A stretch of DNA of 40,085 nucleotides from a virus: IMG/VR virus record IMGVR_UViG_3300045612_000399, positions 1-40,085 of that record; one strand, 5' to 3'. The notes beneath the pieces were generated by a model. It was not told where the DNA came from. It ran no database searches and saw only the letters and a list, made by a program, of their open reading frames with translations. The position numbers and the translations under genes were made by a program. Below are positions 5,559 through 32,182 of the stretch, in pieces (positions within the stretch are counted from its first letter, which is position 1; each line of letters starts with the position of its first letter).

Positions 5559-6863
5559 TCAAAGGTGTCCGGCTAGTTCTGCAACTCCGCCCGTGTATTC
5601 TTCCCAACGCCGCAGGATGACCTCTGTGTATTTTGGCGTTATCTCTAGTCCGTAACAGATCCGATCATTTTTCTCGGCAGACAAAAGAGTTGTTCCGCTC
5701 CCCAGAAAGGCATCGAAAACAATATCGCCCTTCTTACTGGAATTAAGTATCGCATTGTCAACCAATTCGACAGGCTTCATGGTGGGATGGGAAGAAGATG
5801 CGAGAGGTTTTTTTACAGGCCAAATAGTGGTCTTAAATTGTCCCTCCCCATAGAATATGTGCTTTTTATTCCAGGTATACAAAATCCCTTCGTGCTGATA
5901 CTCGTAGTCAAGCCGCCCCATGGAAAAGGTAGGTTGCAGCTTGTCCCACAGAATGAGATGTTTTGTCTGAAGTCCAGATTCCCCCATCATCGCAACTACC
6001 ATTGACATCAGGGGAGGGCAAGTAGCAAAGCAAACATAATAAGAACAGTGATCCTGAGATTGAGACTTGATCGCCTTGAATACTTTCACTAATTTTGCCC
6101 CAAGATCGTCAATGGGAATGTCGTCATCAACTATGCCTGAATCAACTCGCGAGCTCTTATCGAATTTGTTCAGTAAGGCATTCTTGCCCCCAACATCGAC
6201 GCCATAAGGTGGGTCGGTAAACACAAGATCGATTTTATTACCATTCAGCAATCTAGCAATAGCCCCATCGGCACCGCTATCACCACAGGCTAAACGGTGC
6301 CTACCTAGCGCCCATATTTCGCCTACCTTGCAGCGTGGTTCAATCTCGCCTTGCTCTGTCCGATCTATCAGATCTACAGTGGTCGTTTCATCTTCCTCTT
6401 CAGTGGGTAGCTGTTCCTCCTCAACATTCCACTCTGCCATTTCCTCTGGAAACCACATCGTATCTATGTCAATCGCACCCTCTGAATTCCACTCCTCCAA
6501 AACTTCAGTGTCCCAATTAAGGCTCACTTCAGCAACGCGATTAGCATAGACAGAGGCAAGCCTAGCTTTAGGATCATTCGCCGTAGCAATATCGGTACGC
6601 CTGAGAATAACCGGACGGGTGCCATCGGTATCGACCACGATAGGCTTAACGCCATCAAAAACCGTGGCAATTTTTTCCAGACGCAAGGAACCATCAAACA
6701 TTTCACCATCGGCGGCACACGTCGCGGCTCCAATCCACCCCACCTTTTGCAACGACTCCTCAAGCATTCCCTCACCACGAGGGCTATGCCGATTTGCGTT
6801 GATTTCCTGTGGCCTGAAATTGTTGATCTCTTGTTCCGATATAGCGTCGTAAATATCAGTCAT
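5559..6863 (-). CDS. ParB-like / DNA (N6-adenine or N4-cytosine) methyltransferase fusion
   Basis: 434 residues. The N-terminal ~125 residues are ParB/sulfiredoxin-like ('INANRHSPRGEGMLEESLQ', 'GSLRLEKIA', 'YANRVAEVSLNWD'). The C-terminal part is a DNA methyltransferase: VFTDPPYGVDVGG near residue 217 is the catalytic DPPY motif and DAFLGSGTTLLSAEK near residue 381 is the AdoMet-binding motif, so the order is catalytic then cofactor motif (beta class). Such ParB-MTase fusions are common in phages and probably modify phage DNA to evade restriction. No restriction partner is visible. It is the first gene of the leftward packaging operon. A TACAAT-like -10 (revcomp of 6889-6894) lies upstream without a clear -35. 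Confidence 0.85.
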   Translation of the reverse strand: MTDIYDAISEQEINNFRPQEINANRHSPRGEGMLEESLQKVGWIGAATCAADGEMFDGSLRLEKIATVFDGVKPIVVDTDGTRPVILRRTDIATANDPKARLASVYANRVAEVSLNWDTEVLEEWNSEGAIDIDTMWFPEEMAEWNVEEEQLPTEEEDETTTVDLIDRTEQGEIEPRCKVGEIWALGRHRLACGDSGADGAIARLLNGNKIDLVFTDPPYGVDVGGKNALLNKFDKSSRVDSGIVDDDIPIDDLGAKLVKVFKAIKSQSQDHCSYYVCFATCPPLMSMVVAMMGESGLQTKHLILWDKLQPTFSMGRLDYEYQHEGILYTWNKKHIFYGEGQFKTTIWPVKKPLASSSHPTMKPVELVDNAILNSSKKGDIVFDAFLGSGTTLLSAEKNDRICYGLEITPKYTEVILRRWEEYTGGVAELAGHL

Positions 6864-7556: not shown

Positions 7557-8417
7557 ATGATCGTTGACCTGCATAAGCAAAGTCCTATGCTATCCAGTAG
7601 CTTACTGATGTCTCCCCCGTTGGTAGCTTGGATAGCTAGCCTGCCATCCCCTGAGCAGATACACAAAATTTTTATTGAACAACGGAACCAGATAGCGATC
7701 GCTAACAAAGGGCTGCTCTACAAAATCGTCAATAGATTTTCTCGAAAAAACCAGATCCCCCTAGAAGATCTGGAATCTGTTGGGATGATTGGACTACTTA
7801 AGGCAATTGAATTATTTGAGCCAGAGCGAGGCTATCAGTTTAGTAGTTACGCAGGCGCCAAGATCAGAGGGGAGTTGCTGCACTATCAGCGAGACAAGTG
7901 TAGTCCTGGCGGCCTGAAAATACCTCGCAGATGGACTGACCACAAGGGCAAGCTAGAGAGGGGGGAGCCTTGCCGCGCCGTGCCAGATAACGAGCGGGCC
8001 GACGCATTGGAGGCGTTGAAATATCAACAGATTGCTAGCCTAAATCGTCAGCCATCTGAAGACGGATCAGGGGCAATACCAGATAGAAGGATGTCAGGCG
8101 ATCCCAAGCTGACCAGTCTTGACCTATGCCATTCTTTAGGATTCCAGACGCGGCAAGGATATTTCAACGCGACAAGGGCATGTAAAATTATCAACCCTAG
8201 CAAAAGACCCTATGATTTCCTGAGATTAACTGGCACACGCAGGAAGAAACTGGCACAAAATACGGGCAAATCCCGCATTTTAAGAAAAAGGGGCAGAGAT
8301 GGCTCGACCTGGCTACATTATGAGCTTGCCGCCGATTTCATGATCTGGCTATCGCCTGAAAGCCGAGATAAGTTGCTATCAGTATTAAGTGCTGAGCTAG
8401 TCGATCTGTATGATTAG
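7557..8417 (+). CDS. Sigma-70 region 2 / KilA-N fusion protein
   Basis: 286 residues. Residues ~40-114 match sigma-70 region 2: RNQIAIANKGLLYKIVNRF, then DLESVGMIGLLKAIELFEPE and RGYQFSSYAGAKIRGELLHY, i.e. the core-RNA-polymerase and -10 binding part. A short LKIPRRW segment recalls the start of region 3, but there is no region 4. Instead residues ~185-280 resemble a KilA-N domain: GYFNATRACKI, YDFLRLTGT, then GSTWLHYELAADFMIWLSPE. KilA-N is a DNA-binding domain of large DNA viruses and phages. The protein may direct host RNA polymerase to phage promoters, with KilA-N replacing the -35 reader. ATG 7557 lacks a clear Shine-Dalgarno sequence; ATG 7608 would leave both domains intact and give a longer divergent promoter. 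Confidence 0.8.
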   Translation: MIVDLHKQSPMLSSSLLMSPPLVAWIASLPSPEQIHKIFIEQRNQIAIANKGLLYKIVNRFSRKNQIPLEDLESVGMIGLLKAIELFEPERGYQFSSYAGAKIRGELLHYQRDKCSPGGLKIPRRWTDHKGKLERGEPCRAVPDNERADALEALKYQQIASLNRQPSEDGSGAIPDRRMSGDPKLTSLDLCHSLGFQTRQGYFNATRACKIINPSKRPYDFLRLTGTRRKKLAQNTGKSRILRKRGRDGSTWLHYELAADFMIWLSPESRDKLLSVLSAELVDLYD

Positions 8418-9450: not shown

Positions 9451-10257
9451 ATGAAAACGCCGCATGAAAAACCAGCAATTTCTATAAGTCATCCGTTGCC
9501 ATACAGTATAGCAGGTAAGTCTGTATTGAAGTGGCAATTCAAGTACAAGCATGGGCAAAATCCCCTGAAGCATAGTCTAGAAAGACAATTTCCAGACGGG
9601 CTAACGATTAAAGCCTACCAGCCCCCCGACTCGAATACATTGGAGGGATCCGCCTATTATTTGGGCTTCGTAGAGGTGGAGGGAGAATTCGTGCCTGACG
9701 ATTCTTTCAGGTCAGCGATCATGATCCTGGATAGCGAGATCCCGGTACAGTGCTGGGATGCGTGGTTTAGATACGGTAAAGTTGTCCTCGATTATGAATG
9801 GCTAGAGCCTTTTGTTTGCATAAAATCACTAGAGCCGCGCGAGCCAGAGCAACCACAGGAGCAGGTGGCAAGACAAGAACATCCGAGAGAGACAGACTTT
9901 GCTGGAAAATTCCAGCCTGCGAGAATTTGGTCAATGAACAGTATGTTTGATCGTCCAGACAATACAACAGAGATAGAGGTGGTTGAAGAATTTCAACTAA
10001 GGCAGTTGTCAGCAGGGGCGCGAAGGATGGCCGAAGCCTGGATCATGGACGATTGCTACGACTTGGTGTCCGGGCACGACGATCTTATCCACGTGGATGA
10101 CTACACTGAGGATCTGGTTGAGTCAGATATCCCCCTCCTGCAACAGATACAGGACGTAGTTCGACGGTCTGGAGCTACTAATCTACGAACTGCGGAGTAC
10201 ATCATCAATCTAGAAGCGCGGTTAGCCAGACTAGAGAGAAAAATGGAGCGCTCGTAA
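9451..10257 (+). CDS. Hypothetical protein with C-terminal domain shared with the next gene (268 aa)
   Basis: ATG preceded by AGGAGACAG. The N-terminal ~130 residues are of unknown type with several Trp/Tyr residues (QCWDAWFRYGKVVLDYEW), followed by a Gln/Glu/Arg linker around residues 130-150. The C-terminal ~80 residues (from ARRMAEAWIMDDCYDL to NLEARLARLERKM) are clearly homologous to the next gene product, sharing 'W-I-x-D-x-CYDL', 'VRRSGAxNL', 'AEYIINLEARLxR'. The last part is probably a coiled coil. Function unknown. Confidence 0.7.
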   Translation: MKTPHEKPAISISHPLPYSIAGKSVLKWQFKYKHGQNPLKHSLERQFPDGLTIKAYQPPDSNTLEGSAYYLGFVEVEGEFVPDDSFRSAIMILDSEIPVQCWDAWFRYGKVVLDYEWLEPFVCIKSLEPREPEQPQEQVARQEHPRETDFAGKFQPARIWSMNSMFDRPDNTTEIEVVEEFQLRQLSAGARRMAEAWIMDDCYDLVSGHDDLIHVDDYTEDLVESDIPLLQQIQDVVRRSGATNLRTAEYIINLEARLARLERKMERS

Positions 10258-10295
10258 GCGCACAGTCTACCAAAGGCAATAGAAGGAGAAAGACA

Positions 10296-10577
10296 ATGAC
10301 TGAAGAATTTGACCTGAATAGCCTATCGGAAGTGGCATCACGCCTTGCTGAGTATTGGATCAAAGATCCCTGCTATGACCTGTGGAGCGCGGTAGAAGAT
10401 GCCGAGGGAGCAAGCAGCTCAGATGCAGCCCTTTGTCGCAAGATAGATGAGGCCGTGCGGCGGTCTGGGGCCAATAATCTGATAGCGGCTGAGTACATTA
10501 TCAATTTAGAAGCTCGGCTAACCCGAATAGAAGAGAAGCTCTCTATGTTGAGCGGGGGCCACGATGCAACAAGCTAG
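10296..10577 (+). CDS. Hypothetical protein, paralogue of the preceding gene's C-terminal domain (93 aa)
   Basis: ATG preceded by AAGGAG. The protein corresponds almost entirely to the C-terminal domain of the 268-residue protein: ASRLAEYWIKDPCYDL, VRRSGANNLIAAEYIINLEA and RLTRIEEKL, ending in a short coiled coil that would favour oligomers, possibly mixed ones with the longer paralogue. Function unknown. It overlaps the next small gene by 14 bases. Confidence 0.7.
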   Translation: MTEEFDLNSLSEVASRLAEYWIKDPCYDLWSAVEDAEGASSSDAALCRKIDEAVRRSGANNLIAAEYIINLEARLTRIEEKLSMLSGGHDATS

Positions 10578-10716
10578 CCAACAGCTCAGCCTTGTGGGTA
10601 GTTCTCCTGAAGCGCCACGCGATCGCCGCGTGGCTAATGACTACTATCCTACCGACTGGAGCTGGCAGAATCAGGGGCTTACTAATCCGTTTCAATACCT
10701 AATCGACTGGAGATGA
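10564..10716 (+). CDS. Small hypothetical protein (50 aa)
   Basis: ATG 10564 with GGGGG just upstream. The short product begins MQQASQQLSLVG and contains NDYYPTDWSWQNQGLTNPF, a composition typical of folded protein rather than noise. It overlaps the previous gene end and its own stop overlaps the next start as ATGA (10713-10716), which supports translation. Function unknown. Confidence 0.5.
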   Translation: MQQASQQLSLVGSSPEAPRDRRVANDYYPTDWSWQNQGLTNPFQYLIDWR

Positions 10717-10907
10717 AGATGACACTCTACAAAGGAAAAGCGGTTCTGGTGAGCCAAAGCTTTTTGAGGCAGATAATCCGATACACGGGGAGCAGCAAAG
10801 AGGAAATTGAAGAGAAGGCGCGTGAGGATTGCGTTTACTACGGCTCAAAATTGGAAAGCCTCACATTTGAGGAGATGTCGGCTGAGTTATCAGAGTTAGA
10901 GGCGTAA
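10713..10907 (+). CDS. Small hypothetical protein (64 aa)
   Basis: Start overlaps the preceding stop (ATGA); an alternative ATG follows two codons later. Basic N-terminus (KMTLYKGKAVLVSQSFLRQI), acidic helical C-terminus (LTFEEMSAELSELEA). No family recognised. Part of the early rightward operon before the replication initiator. Confidence 0.5.
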   Translation: MKMTLYKGKAVLVSQSFLRQIIRYTGSSKEEIEEKAREDCVYYGSKLESLTFEEMSAELSELEA

Positions 10908-10983
10908 AACAGCAAACAATTCCGACCCTTCAGGGCATCTACAGTAGAAATCGAAAATTAAGATTAGCGAGAGCGAGTCAGAC

Positions 10984-11922
10984 ATGTCTACGATCCACTG
11001 GTTTAAGTGCAAGCATTCAATTCCCGACGATATCAGAATCCGCAGTTTCACCCCCGCCCAGAAATGGGGATGGTTTTCAATCCTGTGCCTAGCCAGTCAA
11101 TCGAAGATTCGGGGCGTCGTGAACAACGACGAAGAAGACATATCAGCCTATCTTGGCTTCAGTACAGACGAATGGCTCATTTTCAAAGAGAAACTGATCG
11201 CTAAGGGCTTAGTTCTTGTGAACCCAGATGGCAGCCTTTTTATCGTTGATTGGGAGGAGGAGCAGCAGAGACCATCTAGCGCAAAGGAGCGCGTTAACGA
11301 GCGCGTAAAGAAGCACAGAGAAAGCAAAAAAAAGGCTGGCGCAACACGTAACGCGGATGAAACGCGATGTAACGCGGAGTGTAACGCGGATGAAACGCGA
11401 TGTAACGCGACAGATAAGAGTAGAGTAGAGGAGATAAGAGTAGAGGAGATAAGAGAAGAAGAGATACATTCTGATCTTTACTCTCACATTCCGGATCCGG
11501 AAAGTGAGAGTGTAACAGCAAGAGAAGAATTTGTAACAGGCAAACTTGAACAGGGTGTAACGCTCTCGCCAACACTCACCCCTGTTCAACAAACTGAGCA
11601 AAGGTTTCGAGGCCAAGACTTTTTGCCGCCGTGGAAAATCGGCACTGGCCCTAACGACTGGAGTGAGCCAGTTCTGACGCTTGTGTCGGGATGGATGAAT
11701 TCTATGCGGAGGGGAAGGGGCCAGCCCCAGGCTACGAGAGCAGATGCGATCGCGTACATCTCCAAGCGATCGCACCCGGAAGCCGAAGGACACCAGGCGC
11801 TTATTGAGCGGATCAATGAGCTTATGAGCCAAGGCTCGACAGAGCAGACCGTTTCAACGGCTCGACAGCAGTGGAAAGAGGAAAAAGCGAAAAGGAGACA
11901 GGCGAATGCTAACCTTCGATAA
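10984..11922 (+). CDS. Phage replication initiator (DnaD/O-like, winged-helix N-terminus)
   Basis: 312 residues. The N-terminal ~90 residues (IHWFKCKHSIPDDIRIRSFT, then KWGWFSILCLASQSKIRGVV and a 'L-V-L-V-N-P-D-G-S-L-F-I-V-D-W-E' end) have the pattern of winged-helix replication proteins of phages, followed by the typical 'SSAKERVNERVKKHRESKKK' linker. A low-complexity middle section (residues ~120-160) contains the repeat NADETRCNA and several 'EEIR' units. The C-terminal ~90 residues (WSEPVLTLVSGWMNSMRRGR onwards) are a second helical domain. The DNA encoding the middle section holds direct repeats, a purine-rich tract and a palindrome, resembling the lambda origin inside gene O. It probably binds this origin and recruits the helicase loader. 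Confidence 0.7.
   Translation: MSTIHWFKCKHSIPDDIRIRSFTPAQKWGWFSILCLASQSKIRGVVNNDEEDISAYLGFSTDEWLIFKEKLIAKGLVLVNPDGSLFIVDWEEEQQRPSSAKERVNERVKKHRESKKKAGATRNADETRCNAECNADETRCNATDKSRVEEIRVEEIREEEIHSDLYSHIPDPESESVTAREEFVTGKLEQGVTLSPTLTPVQQTEQRFRGQDFLPPWKIGTGPNDWSEPVLTLVSGWMNSMRRGRGQPQATRADAIAYISKRSHPEAEGHQALIERINELMSQGSTEQTVSTARQQWKEEKAKRRQANANLR
11348..11511. other. Candidate replication origin inside the initiator gene
   Basis: Six octamers G(T/A)AACGCG start at 11348, 11359, 11369, 11381, 11392 and 11402, about one helical turn apart, arranged as two 33-bp tandem units. They are followed by a tract at 11412-11466 that is almost entirely A and G with scattered T, itself built of repeated GATAAGAG and TAGAGGAG units. 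Then a 32-bp near-perfect palindrome (ACTCTCACATTCCGGA at 11480-11495; one mismatch) follows. Iterons, strand-asymmetric easily melted DNA and palindrome in this order are the parts of the lambda origin. The repeats could also be a by-product of a low-complexity protein linker. Confidence 0.55.
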
Positions 11923-12460
11923 CTTCAACGGAGAGCTGGCTGACCTTTGCCAGATTAAGGGCTGGCGTATTCTTGACTCTTCGGCTTCAAGAGCGTTATA
12001 CGAACAATTCCCGGACAATATTGACCTGGCTTTGTTTTTTGAGAGCGTGTCGGCCATTATTGCCAGCGAGGAAAGAGGAAGCCCTAGTACGCTGCTGCAC
12101 ACATACCGGGCGCTAGAAAGGGCCAAGGTTGACGCGGCGCGATCCACAGAGCGACTGGAGCAGGAACGCCACCTAACGGATGGAATCGACCTAGACGAGA
12201 GGACTACAGCGATCGCTCAGTTCTGTCGCCAGCAGCGGGCGATACGTGAGGGCACTAAACCCAAATTCAAGGCCCAGTGTCCCCACTTACAGGATGATGG
12301 CCTACCGCTTTGCGAAGACAGAGGACTGCGGCCCCTTGGGGTTCTGCCCCGGCTCTGTCTCTGTTGGCATGAGTGGTACATTCGCCCTCTGACAGAGGAG
12401 GACAAGAAAAAGGCCACTTCACCCGTTGTCGCGGCCAGACAGATCGGCTTGCTGCCATGA
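11906..12460 (+). CDS. Putative replication accessory protein with Cys cluster (184 aa)
   Basis: Starts inside the end of the initiator gene (17-base overlap) with AGGAGACAG upstream. The N-terminal half is helical (LTFDNFNGELADLC, SASRALYEQFP, SEERGSPSTLLHTYRALERA). The C-terminal half has spaced cysteines and a histidine (QCPHLQDDGLPLCEDRG, then RLCLCWHEWY) that may bind zinc. In phages the gene after the initiator is often a helicase loader, but there is no P-loop here, so this is not a DnaC-type ATPase. Function unknown; replication role inferred from position. Confidence 0.6.
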   Translation: MLTFDNFNGELADLCQIKGWRILDSSASRALYEQFPDNIDLALFFESVSAIIASEERGSPSTLLHTYRALERAKVDAARSTERLEQERHLTDGIDLDERTTAIAQFCRQQRAIREGTKPKFKAQCPHLQDDGLPLCEDRGLRPLGVLPRLCLCWHEWYIRPLTEEDKKKATSPVVAARQIGLLP

Positions 12461-12663
12461 GCGTCACTGACACGCTGATAGAAACCCGCTGGCAGTGTGA
12501 GGCAGAATTAAACCGCCTGGGGCTAACGTGGAAAAGTCCCCGCGTCAAGCTTTATATTATCCGCCTAGCACAGGCTGATGGGCGGATAAGCGATGGGATA
12601 CTGGCAGACCTGTCTCTTGACGCGATGAGGGCCATGCTGAAAAAACTCAGGGACGCAGAGTAA
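12457..12663 (+). CDS. Small hypothetical protein (68 aa)
   Basis: ATG 12457 overlaps the upstream stop as ATGA, which decides the start over an earlier in-frame codon at 12373. The protein (MSVTDTLIETRWQCEAELNR, later LYIIRLAQADGRISDGILAD and LSLDAMRAMLKKL) is helical with a possible small DNA- or protein-binding fold. Function unknown; part of the replication operon. Confidence 0.6.
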   Translation: MSVTDTLIETRWQCEAELNRLGLTWKSPRVKLYIIRLAQADGRISDGILADLSLDAMRAMLKKLRDAE

Positions 12664-12706
12664 GATTACCTAGGGGAATATCCCCATTACTTAGGAGACA
12701 GACAAG

Positions 12707-13672: not shown

Positions 13673-14740
13673 TTGCATAACCCTACCTACCGCTACAATC
13701 TAGAACGACGCAAGGTGCTCTGGATGAACCGTGCGGCTGAGACTTTTTTTGGATATGCTCACTCATATTTGACTAAGCTCAAATCGGGACTACTGGAGCT
13801 GGTTGTATTTCCAGACGATCTAGGGATGGCCTATGACCACCTAGAAATAGCTCGAAAACTAGCAGATGGGGAAACACACTGCTGCGCCCTGCGAGTTATT
13901 CCAGGAAACTCAATATCTTCTCTGACAGCAAAGTTTTGTTATATCTGCGTAGAGCATGACGGGGAGCAGGCTGTCGAGATTGAGGTTTACGTCTATAAGA
14001 TGCCGACGTATGAGTACGATATGAGAAACTTGCTTAAGATGGCCGTTCCACGCGGTGAGCTGGTCTTGTACTATCAGCCAATTTGCGATCTAGCAACTGG
14101 CGAACTGTGCGGCTATGAGGCGCTGGCTAGATTGAAACGGGGCACAGAAATCTTTGCTCCTAACTTTTTTCTGCCGCATTTAGACGGGCAGTTAGAAAAA
14201 GACTGGGTTGCACAGCAGATCGATCAAATCGGCGTAACCCTGGATAAGCTGCCCCCTCCGCTTTGGGTTAGTCTGAATGCGTCTGAGCAGGTTTTAGCAA
14301 CTGGGCTGCTAATCACTTTATTGGAAGGGCATCGCCACATAGGGCGGATCGGGATCGAGGTTTTAGAATCAACTAGCCTATCTTGTCCAGATGCCGTGAA
14401 AAACCTTCACCTGCTAAATACAATGGGAATCATTCTTAAGGCAGACGATATCGGGAACAAGGAAACTGGCGGAGGGCTAGACCGTCTACTAGAAGAAGAT
14501 TTATTCTCGGTTATCAAGCTTGACGGCGAGCTAACCCGTCACTTGAATGAACCCAAAAAGGCGAGTATCACAAAACACCTGCTGGGTATCGCTTCTGAGG
14601 CCAGGCTAAAAACTATTGCGGAGTGGGTGACCAGCGCGCCACAGGCTGAATGGTTGGGTCAGCATGGCTGCTTGATGGGTCAAGGCGAACTCTACGGCAT
14701 GCCAGGGCCCTTGGTTTTTGATGACGATTCAGATCGGTAG
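13673..14740 (+). CDS. PAS-EAL cyclic-di-GMP phosphodiesterase
   Basis: 355 residues from a TTG start, 8 bases after the previous stop. Residues ~8-105 resemble a PAS sensor domain (RRKVLWMNRAAETFFGY, then LVVFPDDLGMAYDHLE). Residues ~115-350 form an EAL domain with the catalytic set present: E149 and R153 in GYEALARLK, N202 in WVSLNAS, E229/E232 in IGIEVLES, D258-D259 in LKADDIG, K282 in SVIKLDG, E317 in TIAEWV and Q337 in LMGQGELYG. It should hydrolyse cyclic di-GMP to pGpG. The loop after DD departs from the usual DDFGTG (here DDIGNKETG). There are no membrane segments, so it acts in the cytoplasm. A phage enzyme of this kind could change host motility, biofilm or light-signalling state. 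Confidence 0.85.
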   Translation: MHNPTYRYNLERRKVLWMNRAAETFFGYAHSYLTKLKSGLLELVVFPDDLGMAYDHLEIARKLADGETHCCALRVIPGNSISSLTAKFCYICVEHDGEQAVEIEVYVYKMPTYEYDMRNLLKMAVPRGELVLYYQPICDLATGELCGYEALARLKRGTEIFAPNFFLPHLDGQLEKDWVAQQIDQIGVTLDKLPPPLWVSLNASEQVLATGLLITLLEGHRHIGRIGIEVLESTSLSCPDAVKNLHLLNTMGIILKADDIGNKETGGGLDRLLEEDLFSVIKLDGELTRHLNEPKKASITKHLLGIASEARLKTIAEWVTSAPQAEWLGQHGCLMGQGELYGMPGPLVFDDDSDR

Positions 14741-15756: not shown

Positions 15757-16956
15757 TTACGATGTGATTTCAATCGATCTTTCCAGCTCGCCAAGTTCAT
15801 ACTGACTTGCCTTGGGGAAAGTTCTGTCCAAGATCATTTTTTGTATCAACTCAACCTCTTCAGGCTGAATTAAAACGTATGGCGTCAGCCCTTTTTCTAG
15901 TGCTAATTTTGTCGACTCTGCTTGCAATCCCAAGATTGCATCTAGTGCCCATTGACGAGCCGCCAAAGTCAAACAGCCTTTCTCTCCGTTCTTTTTGCGA
16001 TGCCTGAAAGATTCATCCCAGCGTAGCCGCCAATAAATATCAGCCAAGCGAGTAAAAGGAGCTAAGTGAGTCCAGCGATCTTGCAATATGACCGTTTCTA
16101 GAGCTTTGTCTATTCGGGGTTTTTCTTCGTTGGCTGTGGTCACTAATGGGCAACCGATGCACCCAGTTCTACTGTTCAGCGGTTCATCATTTTCGGGATC
16201 GTAGTCGCCCATTCCATACGTTTCGAATACCCCATCAATAGGGTACCCGTACTCATATTTGGCTTCCACTAGCCAGTCCCAAACATTGCAAACACGCCAG
16301 TGTAATAGAGGCGACAACTTGTATCCTGTCCCGCTCTGGTTTTTGTGAAACCAACCTTGACCACATTCTCCATCTTCTTTATTGCAGCTAGTCGTAATTA
16401 TTCGATCCCTGGCAATGCTTTCTCCCTTACGGATACCGTCAATTCCTAAGAAATCGTTGCCATATTCAGATCTGATCGCTAAACAAATTGAATCAATTTT
16501 TTCTGCCTTAAGACGATTTGTACACCACCTGAAACGATTGTGTGGAGGAGGATAACCCTTACCTAACATGGTCACAAAAAACCGCTCGGTTTTGGGTATC
16601 GTGGTTTCAAGCTGTGGTTCAGTCCGGCGGATCTGCCATCCCTTGGCTTGAAGATGATCGAGCAAACGGTTCGCCGAATCGAGCAAGGACGGCAGCTCCA
16701 TTAATGTATTGCAAAAAACCAGGATTTTACTTGATGGTGATTCAATTTGCTCTGTGGCAATAAGCCAATCGATCAGTGTGGCGGTTGCCGTAGAATCCTT
16801 TCCCCCTGAATAGCCAATAACCCATGCAGAGAGATTGCTGCCATACGTATTGAGGGAGTTGATAGTTAAATCAATTGCCTCTTGCAAAGACAGCAACATT
16901 GATCTTCCGGCTTCGGTGTGCCGAAAAATGTCTAGCTGGGTATGCTTTTTCGCCAC
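15757..16956 (-). CDS. DndC-like / PAPS reductase-family ATP pyrophosphatase
   Basis: 399 residues. The ATP-pyrophosphatase P-loop is IGYSGGKDSTATA (SGGKDST at residues 50-56). Further family marks are LGKGYPPPHNRFRWCTNRLK (C145) and SRTGCIGCPLV (C266, C269), with additional C191 and C198, so a metal or Fe-S cluster is plausible. The 'GKGYPxPxxxFRWCTxRLK' plus 'RxGCxxCxxV' combination is closer to DndC of the DNA phosphorothioation system than to CysH, which reduces PAPS. No dndA, dndD or dndE homologue is visible. It may work in DNA or RNA thiolation or in sulfur metabolism. It begins 23 bases after the zinc-ribbon gene and precedes the nuclease gene. Confidence 0.75.
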   Translation of the reverse strand: MAKKHTQLDIFRHTEAGRSMLLSLQEAIDLTINSLNTYGSNLSAWVIGYSGGKDSTATATLIDWLIATEQIESPSSKILVFCNTLMELPSLLDSANRLLDHLQAKGWQIRRTEPQLETTIPKTERFFVTMLGKGYPPPHNRFRWCTNRLKAEKIDSICLAIRSEYGNDFLGIDGIRKGESIARDRIITTSCNKEDGECGQGWFHKNQSGTGYKLSPLLHWRVCNVWDWLVEAKYEYGYPIDGVFETYGMGDYDPENDEPLNSRTGCIGCPLVTTANEEKPRIDKALETVILQDRWTHLAPFTRLADIYWRLRWDESFRHRKKNGEKGCLTLAARQWALDAILGLQAESTKLALEKGLTPYVLIQPEEVELIQKMILDRTFPKASQYELGELERSIEITS

Positions 16957-18113: not shown

Positions 18114-18156
18114 GGCTATGGTCGGGCTATAGCCATGCTATAGCCTGACCATAGCC
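18114..18156. promoter_or_regulatory. Nested, mutually exclusive palindromes built from GGCTAT/ATAGCC
   Basis: GGCTATGGTCGGGCTATAG (18114-18132) and its complement CTATAGCCTGACCATAGCC (18138-18156) match at 18 of 19 positions around a CCATG centre. A second palindrome overlaps it: TAGCATGGCTAT (18109-18120) with ATAGCCATGCTA (18129-18140). The two cannot form together. Hexamers GGCTAT or ATAGCC occur five times. It lies between the RHH-like gene and the promoter of the membrane operon. Confidence 0.7.
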
Positions 18157-18163
18157 TAGCTAG

Positions 18164-18192
18164 TTGCAAAGTAATAGAGGCCGTGTTAAAAG
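18164..18192 (+). promoter_or_regulatory. Promoter of the membrane/ATPase operon
   Basis: TTGCAA (18164-18169), a 17-base spacer and TAAAAG (18187-18192) each match the sigma-70 consensus at 4 of 6 positions. The AGTGAAC array begins 2 bases after the -10, so the expected start point lies inside the array. Confidence 0.45.
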
Positions 18193-18194
18193 AT

Positions 18195-18238
18195 AGTGAA
18201 CAAGAGTGAACGTTCACTCTTGTTCACTCTTGTTCACT
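18195..18238. promoter_or_regulatory. Array of five AGTGAAC heptamers with 10-bp period (operator or iterons)
   Basis: AGTGAAC starts at 18195 and 18205; its complement GTTCACT starts at 18212, 18222 and 18232. The first four make a perfect 34-bp palindrome (18195-18228) and the fifth extends it. The spacing within each orientation is 10 bp, so bound dimers would line up on one face of the helix. Placed over the likely transcription start it suits a repressor; iterons of a plasmid-type origin are an alternative. Confidence 0.7.
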
Positions 18239-21815: not shown

Positions 21816-21863
21816 AAAGCCCTTCCTTGAGCTGGTGACTCAAGGAAGGGCTTTTGTCTTTTT
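21816..21863 (+). terminator. Strong intrinsic terminator after the ATPase operon
   Basis: AAAGCCCTTCCTTGAG (21816-21831) and CTCAAGGAAGGGCTTT (21839-21854) form a 16-bp perfect stem with a 7-base loop, followed by TTGTCTTTTTG. A smaller palindrome (AAAGGA, TT, TCCTTT at 21795-21808) precedes it. The rest of 21728-21929 holds no gene. Confidence 0.85.
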
Positions 21864-25418: not shown

Positions 25419-27047
25419 TTACCTCCAAGCGGCTGGAATGCTGGCGTAGTTTGACAGTGAGGTGCCGCTGTGATTACGAAAACAAGCACTACTATTGGAA
25501 ACTCCACCCGTTCCATAGTTACAGTTCCACAAGTCAGGGGCCGTCCCTTGAGGCCCAGTGGGGGTGAATCTGAATGTGTCCTTGAAGTTTATTGTTTTAT
25601 TGAGGAACCGTGTGCTTTGCTCCCCAGGATTATAAAAAATATCGGCTGTGATAACTGCGGCGCAAGAGGTTATAAAAAAGGTGCCCTGGAAATTAGTGGC
25701 TGCTGTGTTGTTACGGAACAGACCCGCAGGAATAGATCCTGTTAGTCCAGTACAAACATTGAAAGTATTTTCAAAGGTAGCAACTGCTGTATTGCTATCA
25801 AACAGTCCCGAAGGAATAGATGTTAATCCAGTGCAGCCAGAGAAAGTACTCGTAAAAGTAGTAACCGCTGTATTGGTGGCAAACAACCCTGACGGAATTG
25901 AACCCGTTAGTCCAGTGCAGCCAGAGAAAGTACTCGTAAAAGTAGTAACCGCTGTATTCAGGCGGAACAGTCCCGCTGGGATTGCCCCGGTTAGGTTGTT
26001 GCAACTGTGAAAAGTCTCCGAAAAGCTGGTGACCGCCGTGTTTGAGTTGAACAAACCGCTAGGGATAGATCCGGTTAAAGCACTGCAACCTCTAAATATT
26101 TGGTAGAAAGTAGTAACCAATGTATTGTTATTAAAAAGCCCTGATGGAATTGATCCGGTCAACCCGCCACAGTTGTAAAGTACAGAGCTAAAATTAGTAA
26201 CCAATGTATTGTTATTGAATAATCCAGACGGAATAGATCCGGTTAAACCAGAACAGCCCTCAAGTGTACTAGCGAAAGTAGTAACTGCGGTACAGGCGCT
26301 AAATAAATTGCTAGGAATTGATCCGGTTAAGCCGCTACAACCTTGAAAAGTTGCGGAAAAAGTAGTAACTAATGTGTTATTGCTAAACAATCCAGACGGA
26401 ATTGATCCGGTCAATCCGCCACAGTTTTGAAATGTACTAGCGAAAGTCGTAACTGCGGCATTAGTGCTAAACAGTCCAGCAGGAATAGAACCAGTCAGGC
26501 CAGGACAACCTGTGAATGTCTGAAAAAAAGTAGTGTTTCCCGTGTTAAGACTAAACAGCCCCGATGGAATTGATCCGGTTAGGCCAGTACAGTTGGCAAA
26601 AGTATTTGAAAAGCTGCCTGCTGCCGGATTGTGATCGAACAGTCCAGACGGAATACTTGTTAGCCTGGCGCAATTGCCGAACAGGCTAGCAAAGCTAGAC
26701 AGCCCCGGAAAATTACACATCACCCCGGTGGAAATCAAGCGGTTTCTGGTAGTGGCGTTACTCCCCAAGCGGAAAGAGCCACCAGAGCTAAAACTGCCAC
26801 TAATTTTTATTGTATAGGTGCCCGCGTTAGTGTACGTTTTCGTCTTTTGGCCCGTTGTCGTGTAGTTATTGTTGGTACTATCGCCCCAGTCAACCGTAAT
26901 ATTGATGCCAGAGCCAGACGCGATATTGACGGTGTAGTCTTCGTTTGGCGCGGATGTGACAACCGTCAGATCCCATGTGGTAGGAGCCGCCGATGCCGCC
27001 ACAGGGCTGATCAAATTCCCTAAGCTTCGCCCCTGAAGTAGCGGCAT
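25419..27047 (-). CDS. Adhesin-like tail protein with about 13 leucine-rich 28-residue repeats (542 aa)
   Basis: Residues ~20-110 contain a PKD-like beta domain (NITVDWGDSTNNNY, then TYTNAGTYTIKISG). Residues ~120-480 consist of about 13 copies of a 28-residue unit with consensus TF..TF.GC.GLTGSIPSGLF..NTAVT, related to BspA-type leucine-rich surface proteins. The C-terminal ~60 residues (GTAPDLWNCNYGTGGVSNSS) are typical of a surface-exposed cap domain. It probably binds a host surface ligand. Located in the fibre gene cluster. Confidence 0.65.
   Translation of the reverse strand: MPLLQGRSLGNLISPVAASAAPTTWDLTVVTSAPNEDYTVNIASGSGINITVDWGDSTNNNYTTTGQKTKTYTNAGTYTIKISGSFSSGGSFRLGSNATTRNRLISTGVMCNFPGLSSFASLFGNCARLTSIPSGLFDHNPAAGSFSNTFANCTGLTGSIPSGLFSLNTGNTTFFQTFTGCPGLTGSIPAGLFSTNAAVTTFASTFQNCGGLTGSIPSGLFSNNTLVTTFSATFQGCSGLTGSIPSNLFSACTAVTTFASTLEGCSGLTGSIPSGLFNNNTLVTNFSSVLYNCGGLTGSIPSGLFNNNTLVTTFYQIFRGCSALTGSIPSGLFNSNTAVTSFSETFHSCNNLTGAIPAGLFRLNTAVTTFTSTFSGCTGLTGSIPSGLFATNTAVTTFTSTFSGCTGLTSIPSGLFDSNTAVATFENTFNVCTGLTGSIPAGLFRNNTAATNFQGTFFITSCAAVITADIFYNPGEQSTRFLNKTINFKDTFRFTPTGPQGTAPDLWNCNYGTGGVSNSSACFRNHSGTSLSNYASIPAAWR
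25730..26700. repeat. 84-bp tandem repeats encoding 28-residue LRR-like units
   Basis: The word GATCCGGT recurs at 84-base intervals (for example 26152 and 26236) and marks successive units of the adhesin gene; one unit is 81 bp. Copies differ by a few bases each. Confidence 0.75.
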
Positions 27048-29420: not shown

Positions 29421-32182
29421 TATGTGAACTGTCCTCCCGTATCCTTTAACCCGGCTACGCTACCAGGAAAGTAGCTAGCCTCAATTCCCCCGCTGTACGT
29501 GTTAACTACAGAATTGCCCGTAATCAGATGCTTTTGGCAACCAGTGGCAGGCGATCCACTGAAAGCGATGTCATAGCCAGCCCAGAGCGCGGTAGTTTGC
29601 AACTCCGTGAAAATCGAGAACTTTGGGGAGCCAGATAGCGTAACGGTTATTGAGTCGTTTAGCGAGATTCCCCCGCCAGATCTTTCCCGATAATGCCTAG
29701 CAGAATTATTGCTAACCCCAGCGCCACCGCTGATCGTGTAGTTGGTCAGGACAAAGATTGAGCTATTGGTTTCCGCTTGTATATGGGCACAAAAAACATT
29801 GCTGTTTGCCAAGGCGCCAAAGTTCACCGTGTCCAGTTTGATCTCGGCAAAATATTGAGTTCGTAGGGCAATATTCCAACTGCCATTAGTTGAAAGATTG
29901 ATATGAGTAAGGGTTACGCTTTTCAGCGTGACGCCTTGAACGTTTTTCGCTTCAACCAAGGCGCGAGCATCAACGCCATTATCAGCCAGATCGCCACTGC
30001 TTTGAAGAATGCCGCCGTTAAAGTCAAGAACTAAAGCTCCTCCCCCTACAGGCTTTTTCATGATCAGAGAGGCTGCCTGGTTCCAGGTTTGGGCGGCTAC
30101 GCCTGCTTGAATCGTCACTGTGTAGCCACCATCATCAATTCTGGATGCTGCATCGATCGCTCCCTGCCAAGTGAGAAAAGCGCCCACACTGTTATTGGTT
30201 AGTCCGGTGTTGCTGTCGTTGCCATCGCTTCGCACATAATAAGTGCGGTTTGCGGCAAGAACTGCCCGCCCGCCACTAACAGAGTCCGATCCGGCAACAT
30301 CGCCAGGGAAAGTTGCCGATCCGCCAACCACAGTAATGATTGAAGGATAGCTTGAATTGAACCTCTGTCCAGTGGCAGATCCGACATAGGTTTGATTGAC
30401 GGCTAAAATCCGACCGCTTCGTGCTGCGTAAGCGAAGGCGAAAGCGAAGGCGGGCGTACCCGTAACCCCAACAGTGTAAGAACTTTCAGCCCCTAAGCGA
30501 ATATAGCCAGCGTCATAGACTTCGGCATGGCTATTACCGCCGCCACTGATTGAATAATTGCTGATCGTTTGAATAACGGCTTCCGCGCCTGCAATCATGT
30601 GACTGTAGGCAGTGGGCCCAAAATCGCAACGATCAATCTCAATAAAAATATTGGGAAGAAACGTCGCATTGACAGCATGACCTGTCCCCGTTGTCTGGAT
30701 TTTTAAGCCCCGCAATTGATAGGTTGAGGCTACCGAACTGTTACCACCGAAAGCGTCGTTATTGGTCGTTGAGACAACAACATTGCTGGGCGTTGCCGGA
30801 TCGCCTTCAATGATGATCCGAGTAAACCCAATCACTTGCTTAAACTGCACTGGCGTCGTGTAAGTACCCGTCCGAACCTTGATTATGCCTTCATAAAGCC
30901 CCCCACCGTCGATCGTGGTCAAGACATCGATCGCCTTTTGAATGGTCAGGAACGCTCCCCCTGCCGTATTAGTCAGTCCGCTGTTACTGTTATTGCCATC
31001 ACTTCGCACATAGTAGGTGCGGCTAGCAGTAAGAACTTCCCGCCCGCCATCTCCGCCTCCCGCGCCGCTCCCTACCTGGGTTTTAGATCCAGATGAGTTA
31101 ATCGTGTAAAGTTTGCTATCGGCACTGTCAGCAAATAAGACGAGCGTTCCGGCTGCTGGTGTACTGGGATCTGAACTTTGCTCAGTGAAATTAATAGAGC
31201 TGGCGGCTGATACTGACCCGGTAGCCCCAGCCGAACCAGTCGCCCCCTTAATGGAAACAGTCAAGGCGGTTGCTACGCCATCAGCAAAGTTGCCAGTGTG
31301 GGATTGATAGGTTACAGGTACCGTTCTATCAGAACCGTTGTCTACAACCGCGCCGGAAACCGCAAAATAGGCTTTATTTCCGGCACTGTTGGCAGTCATC
31401 AGTATTAGTTGAGATCCTACAGATAAGCTGGCTAAGATCGCTTCGATTGCCGCACCATCTGCATCGGTTTCGGAGATAAAAAGGTTGGTAGTCGATGCGA
31501 TCGCTGCATTGTTAAACCTAATCTCGCCAGACGCGGCCCCGGCGCTTGTTCCCGTGTCAAAGGTAAGCGCAATTCCCCCGGCGCTCCCCGTATTCCCTCT
31601 AGGAATAGTAAAGTTGAAGGTAGCAGCGCTTGAACTGCCAACGTTGGTCACAGTAGCTCCACTGCCCGCCGCGCCAGTGGTCACGGTGCCTACCGCGATC
31701 GTTGCCGCCGTTCCAGTAGCTCCAGTGTTGCCTCTAGGAATAGTAAAATCGAAAGTGGCAGCGCTTGAACTGCCTGCGTTAGTCACCGTTGCACTGCTAC
31801 CCGCCGCGCCAGTGGTCACGGTGCCTACCGCGATCGTTGCCGCTGCCCCCGCTGCTCCGGTTTGCCCCTGCGGTATATCAAAATCAAATACAGCAGCGGA
31901 CGTAGTGCCGACGTTGGTCACAGTAGCCGGGTTACCCGTCGCAACTGTCGTCACATCCCCCACTGAGATAGTCGCCGCCGTACCCGCTGCACCGCCGCCA
32001 ATCAGAGTCAAATCACCTAATGAGGTTCCCGTACTGCGGTAAAGCTGCTCTGGTGACACATCTGTTCGCACATAAAACACGCCGGATTGGGTAGGAGTAA
32101 ACGCCGTAGGTGATCCGGTAAACGTAAGCGCTTTGCTAGGGTGTAGCGCCGCGCCGGACAACGCATTATGCTGTACGCTCAT
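29420..32182 (-). CDS. Tail fibre/spike with collagen-like and two beta-helix modules (920 aa)
   Basis: Residues ~60-200 hold three 45-residue repeats built around TAATIAVGTVTTGAAGS and AATFDFTIPRGNTG, a fibre shaft type with G-x-T-G turns. Two related modules follow, beginning TYYVRSDGNNSNSGLTN near residue 390 and TYYVRSDGNDSNTGLTN near residue 660. Each has the form of the N-terminal part of a right-handed beta-helix (pectate-lyase fold) as in phage spikes. It is directly downstream of the tail hub gene. It should bind or degrade a host surface glycan. Confidence 0.7.
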   Translation of the reverse strand: MSVQHNALSGAALHPSKALTFTGSPTAFTPTQSGVFYVRTDVSPEQLYRSTGTSLGDLTLIGGGAAGTAATISVGDVTTVATGNPATVTNVGTTSAAVFDFDIPQGQTGAAGAAATIAVGTVTTGAAGSSATVTNAGSSSAATFDFTIPRGNTGATGTAATIAVGTVTTGAAGSGATVTNVGSSSAATFNFTIPRGNTGSAGGIALTFDTGTSAGAASGEIRFNNAAIASTTNLFISETDADGAAIEAILASLSVGSQLILMTANSAGNKAYFAVSGAVVDNGSDRTVPVTYQSHTGNFADGVATALTVSIKGATGSAGATGSVSAASSINFTEQSSDPSTPAAGTLVLFADSADSKLYTINSSGSKTQVGSGAGGGDGGREVLTASRTYYVRSDGNNSNSGLTNTAGGAFLTIQKAIDVLTTIDGGGLYEGIIKVRTGTYTTPVQFKQVIGFTRIIIEGDPATPSNVVVSTTNNDAFGGNSSVASTYQLRGLKIQTTGTGHAVNATFLPNIFIEIDRCDFGPTAYSHMIAGAEAVIQTISNYSISGGGNSHAEVYDAGYIRLGAESSYTVGVTGTPAFAFAFAYAARSGRILAVNQTYVGSATGQRFNSSYPSIITVVGGSATFPGDVAGSDSVSGGRAVLAANRTYYVRSDGNDSNTGLTNNSVGAFLTWQGAIDAASRIDDGGYTVTIQAGVAAQTWNQAASLIMKKPVGGGALVLDFNGGILQSSGDLADNGVDARALVEAKNVQGVTLKSVTLTHINLSTNGSWNIALRTQYFAEIKLDTVNFGALANSNVFCAHIQAETNSSIFVLTNYTISGGAGVSNNSARHYRERSGGGISLNDSITVTLSGSPKFSIFTELQTTALWAGYDIAFSGSPATGCQKHLITGNSVVNTYSGGIEASYFPGSVAGLKDTGGQFT

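Follow-up and report, generated by a model that had tools for sequence, protein, structure and literature searches.

The question raised by this locus is whether a cluster of short repeats inside a viral gene is the replication origin of the virus and which part of the encoded protein would read those repeats. The DNA analysed is an IMG/VR virus record of 40,085 bases (here called the window, meaning the whole stretch), in which the following features are of concern:

10984-11922 (+), initiator or replisome-organizer gene, a 312-codon ORF for a protein of 312 aa (PHROGs and tblastn)
11053-11244 (+), winged helix-turn-helix core, residues 24-87 (AlphaFold2: helices 24-39, 50-57 and 61-73, strands 77-79 and 85-87; block pLDDT 87-95)
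11275-11358 (+), long basic helix, residues 98-125, the proposed iteron-reading element (AlphaFold2, and pairing of helix and iteron classes in homologues)
11348-11376 (+), iteron unit 1: GTAACGCG at 11348, GAAACGCG at 11359, GTAACGCG at 11369
11381-11409 (+), iteron unit 2: GTAACGCG at 11381, GAAACGCG at 11392, GTAACGCG at 11402
11410-11466 (+), strand-asymmetric purine tract, the proposed unwinding element, 86% purine and 63% A+T
11480-11511 (no strand), palindrome of 16+16 bases with one mismatch and no loop
11512-11562 (+), extra GTAAC half-sites: GTAACA at 11512, GTAACA at 11533 and GTAACG at 11557 (spacing 21 and 24)
11546-11589 (no strand), exact 10-bp inverted repeat, 11546-11555 with 11580-11589

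The six octamers, the purine tract, the 32-bp palindrome and the 10-bp inverted repeat described in an earlier sequence-only reading of this DNA were all confirmed inside the ORF at 10984-11922, and this anatomy is established from the letters themselves; the three extra half-sites, one of which (GTAACG at 11557) sits in the loop of the 10-bp inverted repeat, had been overlooked. The octamers, G(T/A)AACGCG, start at 11348, 11359, 11369, 11381, 11392 and 11402 (spacing 11, 10, 12, 11 and 10), occupy two reading frames and are the sole exact matches in the 40,085 bases on both strands. The two units, at a 33-bp repeat, are identical in 29/29 bases, so the six octamers are partly one recent duplication and not six independent events. 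The window's most purine-rich 57-mer starts at 11412, and the whole initiator gene has, for comparison, 59% purine and 50% A+T. The score of the palindrome at 11480-11511 was reached by 0/200 codon-order shuffles, and two stronger palindromes are present elsewhere in the window (18114-18156 and 21816-21854). As a core part of the origin this palindrome was rejected, since it is not conserved in relatives, having mean scores of 5.77 versus 5.10 (26 genes) and 5.96 versus 5.20 (53 genes). A search of 10900-12700 with Rfam gave 0 matches.

Six near-copies of one octamer in 130 bp were obtained in 0/100 synonymous shuffles and 0/100 codon-order shuffles, and any exact hexamer occurring three times at 9-13 bp in 5/2000 codon shuffles. 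When the window was divided into 79 overlapping 1-kb stretches, 8 had comparable hexamer arrays, with this array itself accounting for two. The one-mismatch copies of GTAACGCG in the whole window numbered 29 versus 21.6 expected, a number reached by 9/100 shuffles, so there is no clear excess of them in the window and only their clustering is unusual. Within the gene, GTAACG/CGTTAC occurs 5 times versus 1.2 expected (reached in 0/200 synonymous resamplings). Because the three-octamer unit is exactly duplicated, these single-gene statistics overstate the array, and it is the relatives that decide.

The encoded protein belongs with phage replisome organizers, having matches below 1e-4 to four PHROGs families for replication initiation and DnaD-like proteins (phrog_9474, E 9.7e-8; phrog_10469, 5.2e-7; phrog_3926, 1.8e-6; phrog_13246, 1.4e-5). 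Pfam gave nothing above threshold, and Phage_rep_org_N (PF09681) was absent among its matches up to E 1. With tblastn, 11 phage records from Streptococcus, Enterococcus and Pseudomonas were found (best E 5e-6), the matches covering ~145 aa from the N-terminus at 24-31% identity. Close relatives were sought among viral contigs (3 pattern stretches) and genome contigs (26), and none was present there, so that the case for the window depends on homologues 20-30% identical. The ORF that follows the initiator (11906-12460), where a lambda-type origin would have a helicase-loader gene, had no PHROGs or NCBIfam match and a sub-threshold Pfam match only.

The AlphaFold2 model (15 rows, mean pLDDT 69) has a winged helix, a long basic helix and then poorly modelled parts, which supports the winged-helix replication protein of the earlier reading. 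In the basic helix, block pLDDT is 87-88 for residues 101-120, and the motif RVKKHR (R107-V-K-K-H-R112) is encoded at 11302-11319; the coding part of this helix lies directly upstream of the first iteron and partly overlaps it. A second model, of the homologue L286 (31 rows, mean pLDDT 76), has the same order, with the wing, a helix at 106-133, a disordered part at 141-161 and a C-terminal domain. Such DNA-free models do not display the proposed DNA contacts of the basic helix. Foldseek with the window model gave no match at E 0.001 or below; weak matches to RepA_N initiators ranked first (the initiator structure 4pta, E 0.012), followed by an unrelated proteasome chain. Solved structures sought by sequence numbered 0 for the Firmicutes-type relatives described below, with one chance-level match for the window protein.

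Relatives were sought in viral contigs using N-terminal domains only, in two sets: A4, of Streptococcus or Firmicutes type (80 loci, 79 of at least 450 nt, 59 nonredundant), and A5, a second type exemplified by ydaU of the E. coli Rac prophage (80 loci, 78 kept, 58 nonredundant). As 4/8 of the A4 seeds and 5/5 of the A5 seeds came from a scan for GTAACG, the fractions of genes with arrays are not population estimates. The top hexamer clustered at least three times on either strand was GTAACG, in 25/59 A4 and 45/58 A5 genes; among hexamers with at least two copies it ranked 9th (A4) and 2nd (A5), behind purine hexamers of the tract. The array lies almost always at gene nt 350-450, in A5 also at nt 100-200, and the density of GTAACG per kb was 3.2 (A4) and 8.3 (A5) in the gene versus 0.30 and 0.34 in the flanks. 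Against the synonymous expectation, GTAACG/CGTTAC was counted 155 versus 42.3 times in the 59 A4 genes and 362 versus 68.0 times in the 58 A5 genes (0/200 resamplings each), with copies in more than one reading frame, in many genes on both strands, and mostly 10-12 bp apart when consecutive. In 93% of 27 and 85% of 54 genes the array is followed by a purine tract, the corresponding figures for codon-shuffled stretches being 19% and 6%; the window did not pass this test as scripted (22/36), because its last half-site follows the tract. The conserved place of the array and its constraint at the DNA level are thus established across these homologues. Additionally, 57/58 nonredundant A5 genes (in L328-L407) have at least two extra GTAACG copies in the part coding for the N-domain, ~200 bp before the linker array.

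Among named genes, 13/21 (the window counted) have at least three GTAACG copies, including phi11, Rac ydaU, one Listeria phage and two Pseudomonas phage groups, and 8/21 have none or one (epsilon15, Bacillus 055SW001, Ruminococcus phiRM10, Oenococcus S13, Vibrio 1.211, r1t, TP901-1 and Tuc2009). The Pseudomonas phages D14H and P54 have 1/3 GTAACG copies in the linker. Relatives having the protein and lacking the repeats, which the sequence-only reading had named as evidence against an origin, do occur (32/59 A4 genes without two GTAACG copies), but most of them have another short repeat at that place; in several genes without GTAACG such repeats precede the purine tract, as GTCAC in phiRM10 and Vibrio 1.211 and CAACCAAATG in Tuc2009. 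A mixture of TAACGCG and AAACGCG like that of the window was found in 4 viral contigs, in one of which (L486) it lies inside an ORF before a purine tract. In two relatives (L278 and L525) the linker resembles an inserted HNH-type endonuclease, which is how we take its CxxC...H motif; in L278 it lies near the GTAACG copies, a possible homing element in an origin.

The sequence of the iterons varies among A4 genes, and so does that of the basic helix. The helix motif was spotted by eye before counting, and its loose form [RK][VQIAML]..[HYWF][RK], sought at residues 85-150, was present in 27/27 A4 genes with at least two GTAACG copies and in 1/32 without (Fisher p 6e-16, relatedness ignored), the lone exception (L317) having one GTAACG and further GTAAC copies. 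The window has the same pairing, with RVKKHR of the RVxxHR class encoded just before the array at 11348-11409. Other pairings in A4 were YMxxYR with CTAAC (16/19), RDRxYQxxR with TCGTC (5/6) and RERIARKR with TCGCC (2/2). Fresh loci were then tested with the regular expressions frozen (80 loci, 1 too short, 34 outside A4, 29 nonredundant). A classed helix was present in 19/29, and these had the expected core in 16/19, an unclassed core in 3/19 and the core of another class in 0/19; the helices of the other 10/29 fell outside the expressions, 7 of them accompanying CTAAC. In A5 the loose motif was missing from 10/54 GTAACG genes and present in 2/4 genes with fewer copies; a strict aromatic rule was dropped, as V, A, S and R also accompany GTAACG there. 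A tree of the N-domains requires at least 18 changes of helix class and 21 of iteron class; this tree is poorly resolved (5/55 inner branches starred), and the 2 independent pairs on those branches gave a sign test that was not significant. Taken together, these comparisons point to an iteron sequence that tracks the basic helix after the wing and not the winged helix.

Near-identical initiators that differ at this place were also present. L286 and L297 agree in 296/301 alignment columns up to the end of the wing, in 71/148 over the helix and iterons, and in 434/457 thereafter; residues 1-100 are identical, yet RVARYR accompanies GTAACG in one gene and YMREYR accompanies CTAAC in the other, so that a block of ~148 columns was replaced and the wing left unchanged. 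In a second pair, L269 and L299, the wHTH residues 1-100 are again identical and the wing DNA is 84% identical, which marks a separate swap event. A wing unchanged over residues 1-100 thus occurs with two iteron types. Among 163 pairs with wings at least 93% identical, 159 share both classes, 4 differ in both and 0 in one alone; the count was made on the A4 loci before removal of redundancy, together with the fresh set, and near-copies are among the 159. One of the four (L293/L509) differs only because L509 fell outside the classes, an artefact, which leaves 3 genuine pairs representing two swap events. The joint change of helix and iterons is established from these alignments. As the two are adjacent, linkage alone could account for their joint swap; the recurrence of the same motif with the same iteron elsewhere is unexplained by linkage.

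Such recurrence was observed when viral contigs were scanned at the DNA level for three GTAACG copies (at least 120 loci). The matches listed gave 68 loci with a usable sense ORF (66 nonredundant), and a GCAATG set, planned as control, gave 120 loci, 76 and 68, respectively. Within 40 residues upstream, the strict motif R[VQ]..[HYWF]R was found in 28/66 ORFs among the GTAACG matches listed, versus a background of 0.5% elsewhere in these ORFs and 1/68 in the GCAATG set (Fisher p 1e-9). Among the matches listed, the 28 ORFs form 12 groups whose N-parts have no mutual blastp match at E 1e-3, and the 38 ORFs without the motif include tail-like proteins with GNVTGNV repeats as well as possible initiators. 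PHROGs profiles were run on 66 ORFs from 80 of the listed GTAACG loci and on 71/74 ORFs from 80 control loci (L180, L197 and L066 left out). GCAATG failed as a control hexamer, since 11/71 of the scanned ORFs match the primosomal phrog_9327, and it became a second case; GTAACG as the sole phage iteron was likewise rejected, as GCAATG is also present in initiator genes. A second iteron group is present among the loci L129-L247, where initiator genes with an A..RW helix have GCAATG arrays. This helix was found in 18/68 of the GCAATG set and 1/66 of the GTAACG set (matches listed), although the pattern was chosen after viewing the same set and the associated p-value lacks independence.

Origins inside initiator genes are already known case by case. 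The sequence-only reading had called this site lambda-like, and a passage of PMC7466680 places the lambda origin inside the initiator gene, with iterons and then an AT-rich tract mid-gene. What holds of that likeness is the order, with iterons inside the initiator gene followed by an A/T-rich, strand-asymmetric tract. The remainder does not hold, as lambda O has no significant similarity to the window initiator (blastp best E 4.4) and no basic helix before its iterons (WCIPQN there), the four annotated lambda iterons are 18 bp at a spacing of 20-24 bp whereas the window has 8-bp cores spaced 10-12 bp, and the palindrome is not conserved among relatives. The layout recurs in Tuc2009 rep2009 (orf16), annotated in its record as 'contains origin of replication'. 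Its linker region has CAACCAAATG repeats (gene nt 364, 375 and 457) and a tract rich in GGATAG; however, this iteron is another sequence, there is no GTAACG, and the likeness drawn here is one of layout. Rep2009 and TP901-1 ORF13 are described in part of PMC8965321 as binding repeats within their own genes that serve as origin; no such array was found at the corresponding place in TP901-1 rep. SPP1 gp38, in a section of PMC6316719, binds oriL direct repeats inside gene 38 beside an AT-rich unwinding element, a layout like that of the window, compared by description only. Organizers of the Phage_rep_org_N type (Streptococcus, Enterococcus, Staphylococcus, Listeria, with ydaU as a second type) have in many cases the same hexamer at the same place and then a purine tract; the N-domain of the window protein is ~20-24% identical to theirs in alignment, but it has no Pfam match and its host is probably cyanobacterial.

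Joint replacement also has precedents. For pSK41-type RepA_N initiators, part of PMC5703833 describes Rep boxes mid-rep with a dispensable linker and, in pPR9, a domain and origin replaced together; the unit replaced there is ~500 bp with the whole N-terminal domain, whereas here it is ~148 columns and the wing is kept. Geminivirus iterons differ between close relatives and bind the cognate Rep, as stated in a portion of PMC12548392, but that replication is of the unrelated rolling-circle type, with iterons outside the gene. Full-text searches on this theme, covering open-licence papers and few subscription journals, turned up neither a helix-to-iteron pairing nor GTAACG as a shared phage iteron, which is weak evidence of absence.

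Based on the position-conserved iterons constrained at the DNA level, the purine tract in homologues and the literature on Tuc2009, TP901-1 and SPP1, the earlier proposal of an origin inside the initiator gene is well supported, and the window site is very probably the phage origin. The suggestion that the protein binds its own gene is plausible. A GC-skew inflection, one of the checks proposed with that reading, did not fall here, as the cumulative skew follows gene direction and has its turns near 7 kb and 22-23 kb, not at 11.4 kb. It is considered highly likely that the origin lies where the gene encodes a flexible linker and works as follows. The initiator would bind the GTAACG iterons, about one helical turn apart, through the basic helix at ~98-125 (RVKKHR), several bound copies would open the adjacent purine-rich, A+T-richer tract, and the C-terminal part would recruit a helicase or loader; the wing may supply affinity without sequence choice or have some other role. 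Binding, unwinding, loading and replication at this site are what we infer from the comparisons above.

Other explanations were weighed against this one. The repeats could be a coding feature, a low-complexity linker grown by slippage and without a DNA function, for which the exact recent duplication of the 33-bp unit and the tolerance of linkers for repeats could be cited; nevertheless, the excess over synonymous nulls in 59 + 58 homologues, the use of two frames, the copies on both strands in many genes and the 10-12 bp phasing make this extremely improbable, and a repeat selected at the protein level was rejected on that excess. Iteron arrays elsewhere can also serve as operator, incompatibility or partition sites, so this array could be an operator of its own or another promoter, or one of the latter sites, and not an origin. 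Yet the sole promoter-like site in 10200-12700 is at 12529, ~1.1 kb off (the number found not being above shuffles), and the array lies within the gene, with a purine tract after it like that of Tuc2009, so that this function is regarded as very unlikely.

A stronger contender accepts the origin but assigns the reading of iterons to the winged helix or the whole N-terminal domain, the basic helix being carried along by recombination as a neighbour. Wings commonly bind iterons, the Rep of pSK41 using its winged helix according to part of PMC5703833, and the swapped block spans helix and iterons together. It is, however, difficult to reconcile with wings identical over residues 1-100 that have different iterons in two independent swaps, and one motif with one iteron over 12 N-part groups (among the matches listed) also speaks against it, although a travelling cassette could yield the latter as well; reading by the wing is thus held to be unlikely. 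Returning to the basic helix as the reader, the comparisons suggest one small cassette, inherited and exchanged as a whole, that joins a short protein segment with the DNA repeats read by it. The broader proposal, somewhat favoured on present alignments, is of a portable cassette of ~150 bp containing basic helix and iterons, in which the helix and not the winged helix would set specificity, which, its two parts being neighbours in one gene, would swap as a unit between initiators unchanged in other respects, and which would follow a helix-to-iteron code common to phages whose hosts are Gram-positive, Gram-negative and probably also cyanobacterial. The code proposed is RVxxHR-GTAACG, YMxxYR-CTAAC, RDRxYQxxR-TCGTC, RERIARKR-TCGCC and possibly SAxxRW-GCAATG. 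If true, a great number of phage and prophage sequences would directly reveal their origins and origin specificity, it would account for how close phages could keep their origins apart, and there would be a clear model of joint change in a protein and the DNA that it targets.

A prediction from this code is that the E. coli Rac prophage has its origin in ydaU. This gene (L413, 1201-1989) contains six GTAACG/CGTTAC copies and a purine tract. Rac is said in a passage of PMC3945230 to have an active origin, oriJ, and this may be located in the ydaU array.

Regarding the host, the HIP1 sequence GCGATCGC occurs 35 times in the window (1-40085) versus 0.64 expected, and part of PMC4390886 describes HIP1 as commonly frequent in cyanobacterial genomes, making a cyanobacterial host likely. 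The search with the window terminase gave 1 genome locus and 62 viral loci; two relatives (L423 and L424) have 0 HIP1, and a contig of 4,960 bases (L422) encodes a terminase 100% identical to that of the window and, judged by this gene, is from the same or a very near phage. A tblastn search with the initiator against the terminase loci and the 4 contigs with the TAACGCG/AAACGCG mixture gave no match at E 1.

Elsewhere in the window, the strongest palindrome (18114-18156) adjoins 2.7 copies of GTTCACTCTT (18212-18238) before a rightward gene cluster, and 18114-18238 is a candidate operator, promoter region or second replication site. The palindrome at 21816-21854 lies between gene blocks of opposite direction. 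The gene inventory also includes a ParB-like part and a DNA methyltransferase in one protein (5559-6863, -), Sigma-70 region 2 fused to a KilA-N domain (7557-8417, +), an EAL-domain protein of cyclic-di-GMP type (13673-14740, +, E 5.6e-31) and a PAPS-reductase/DndC-like gene (15757-16956, -). Tandem repeats of 84 bp and 135 bp are present at 25717-26516 and 31596-31927, respectively, on the stretch of leftward genes.
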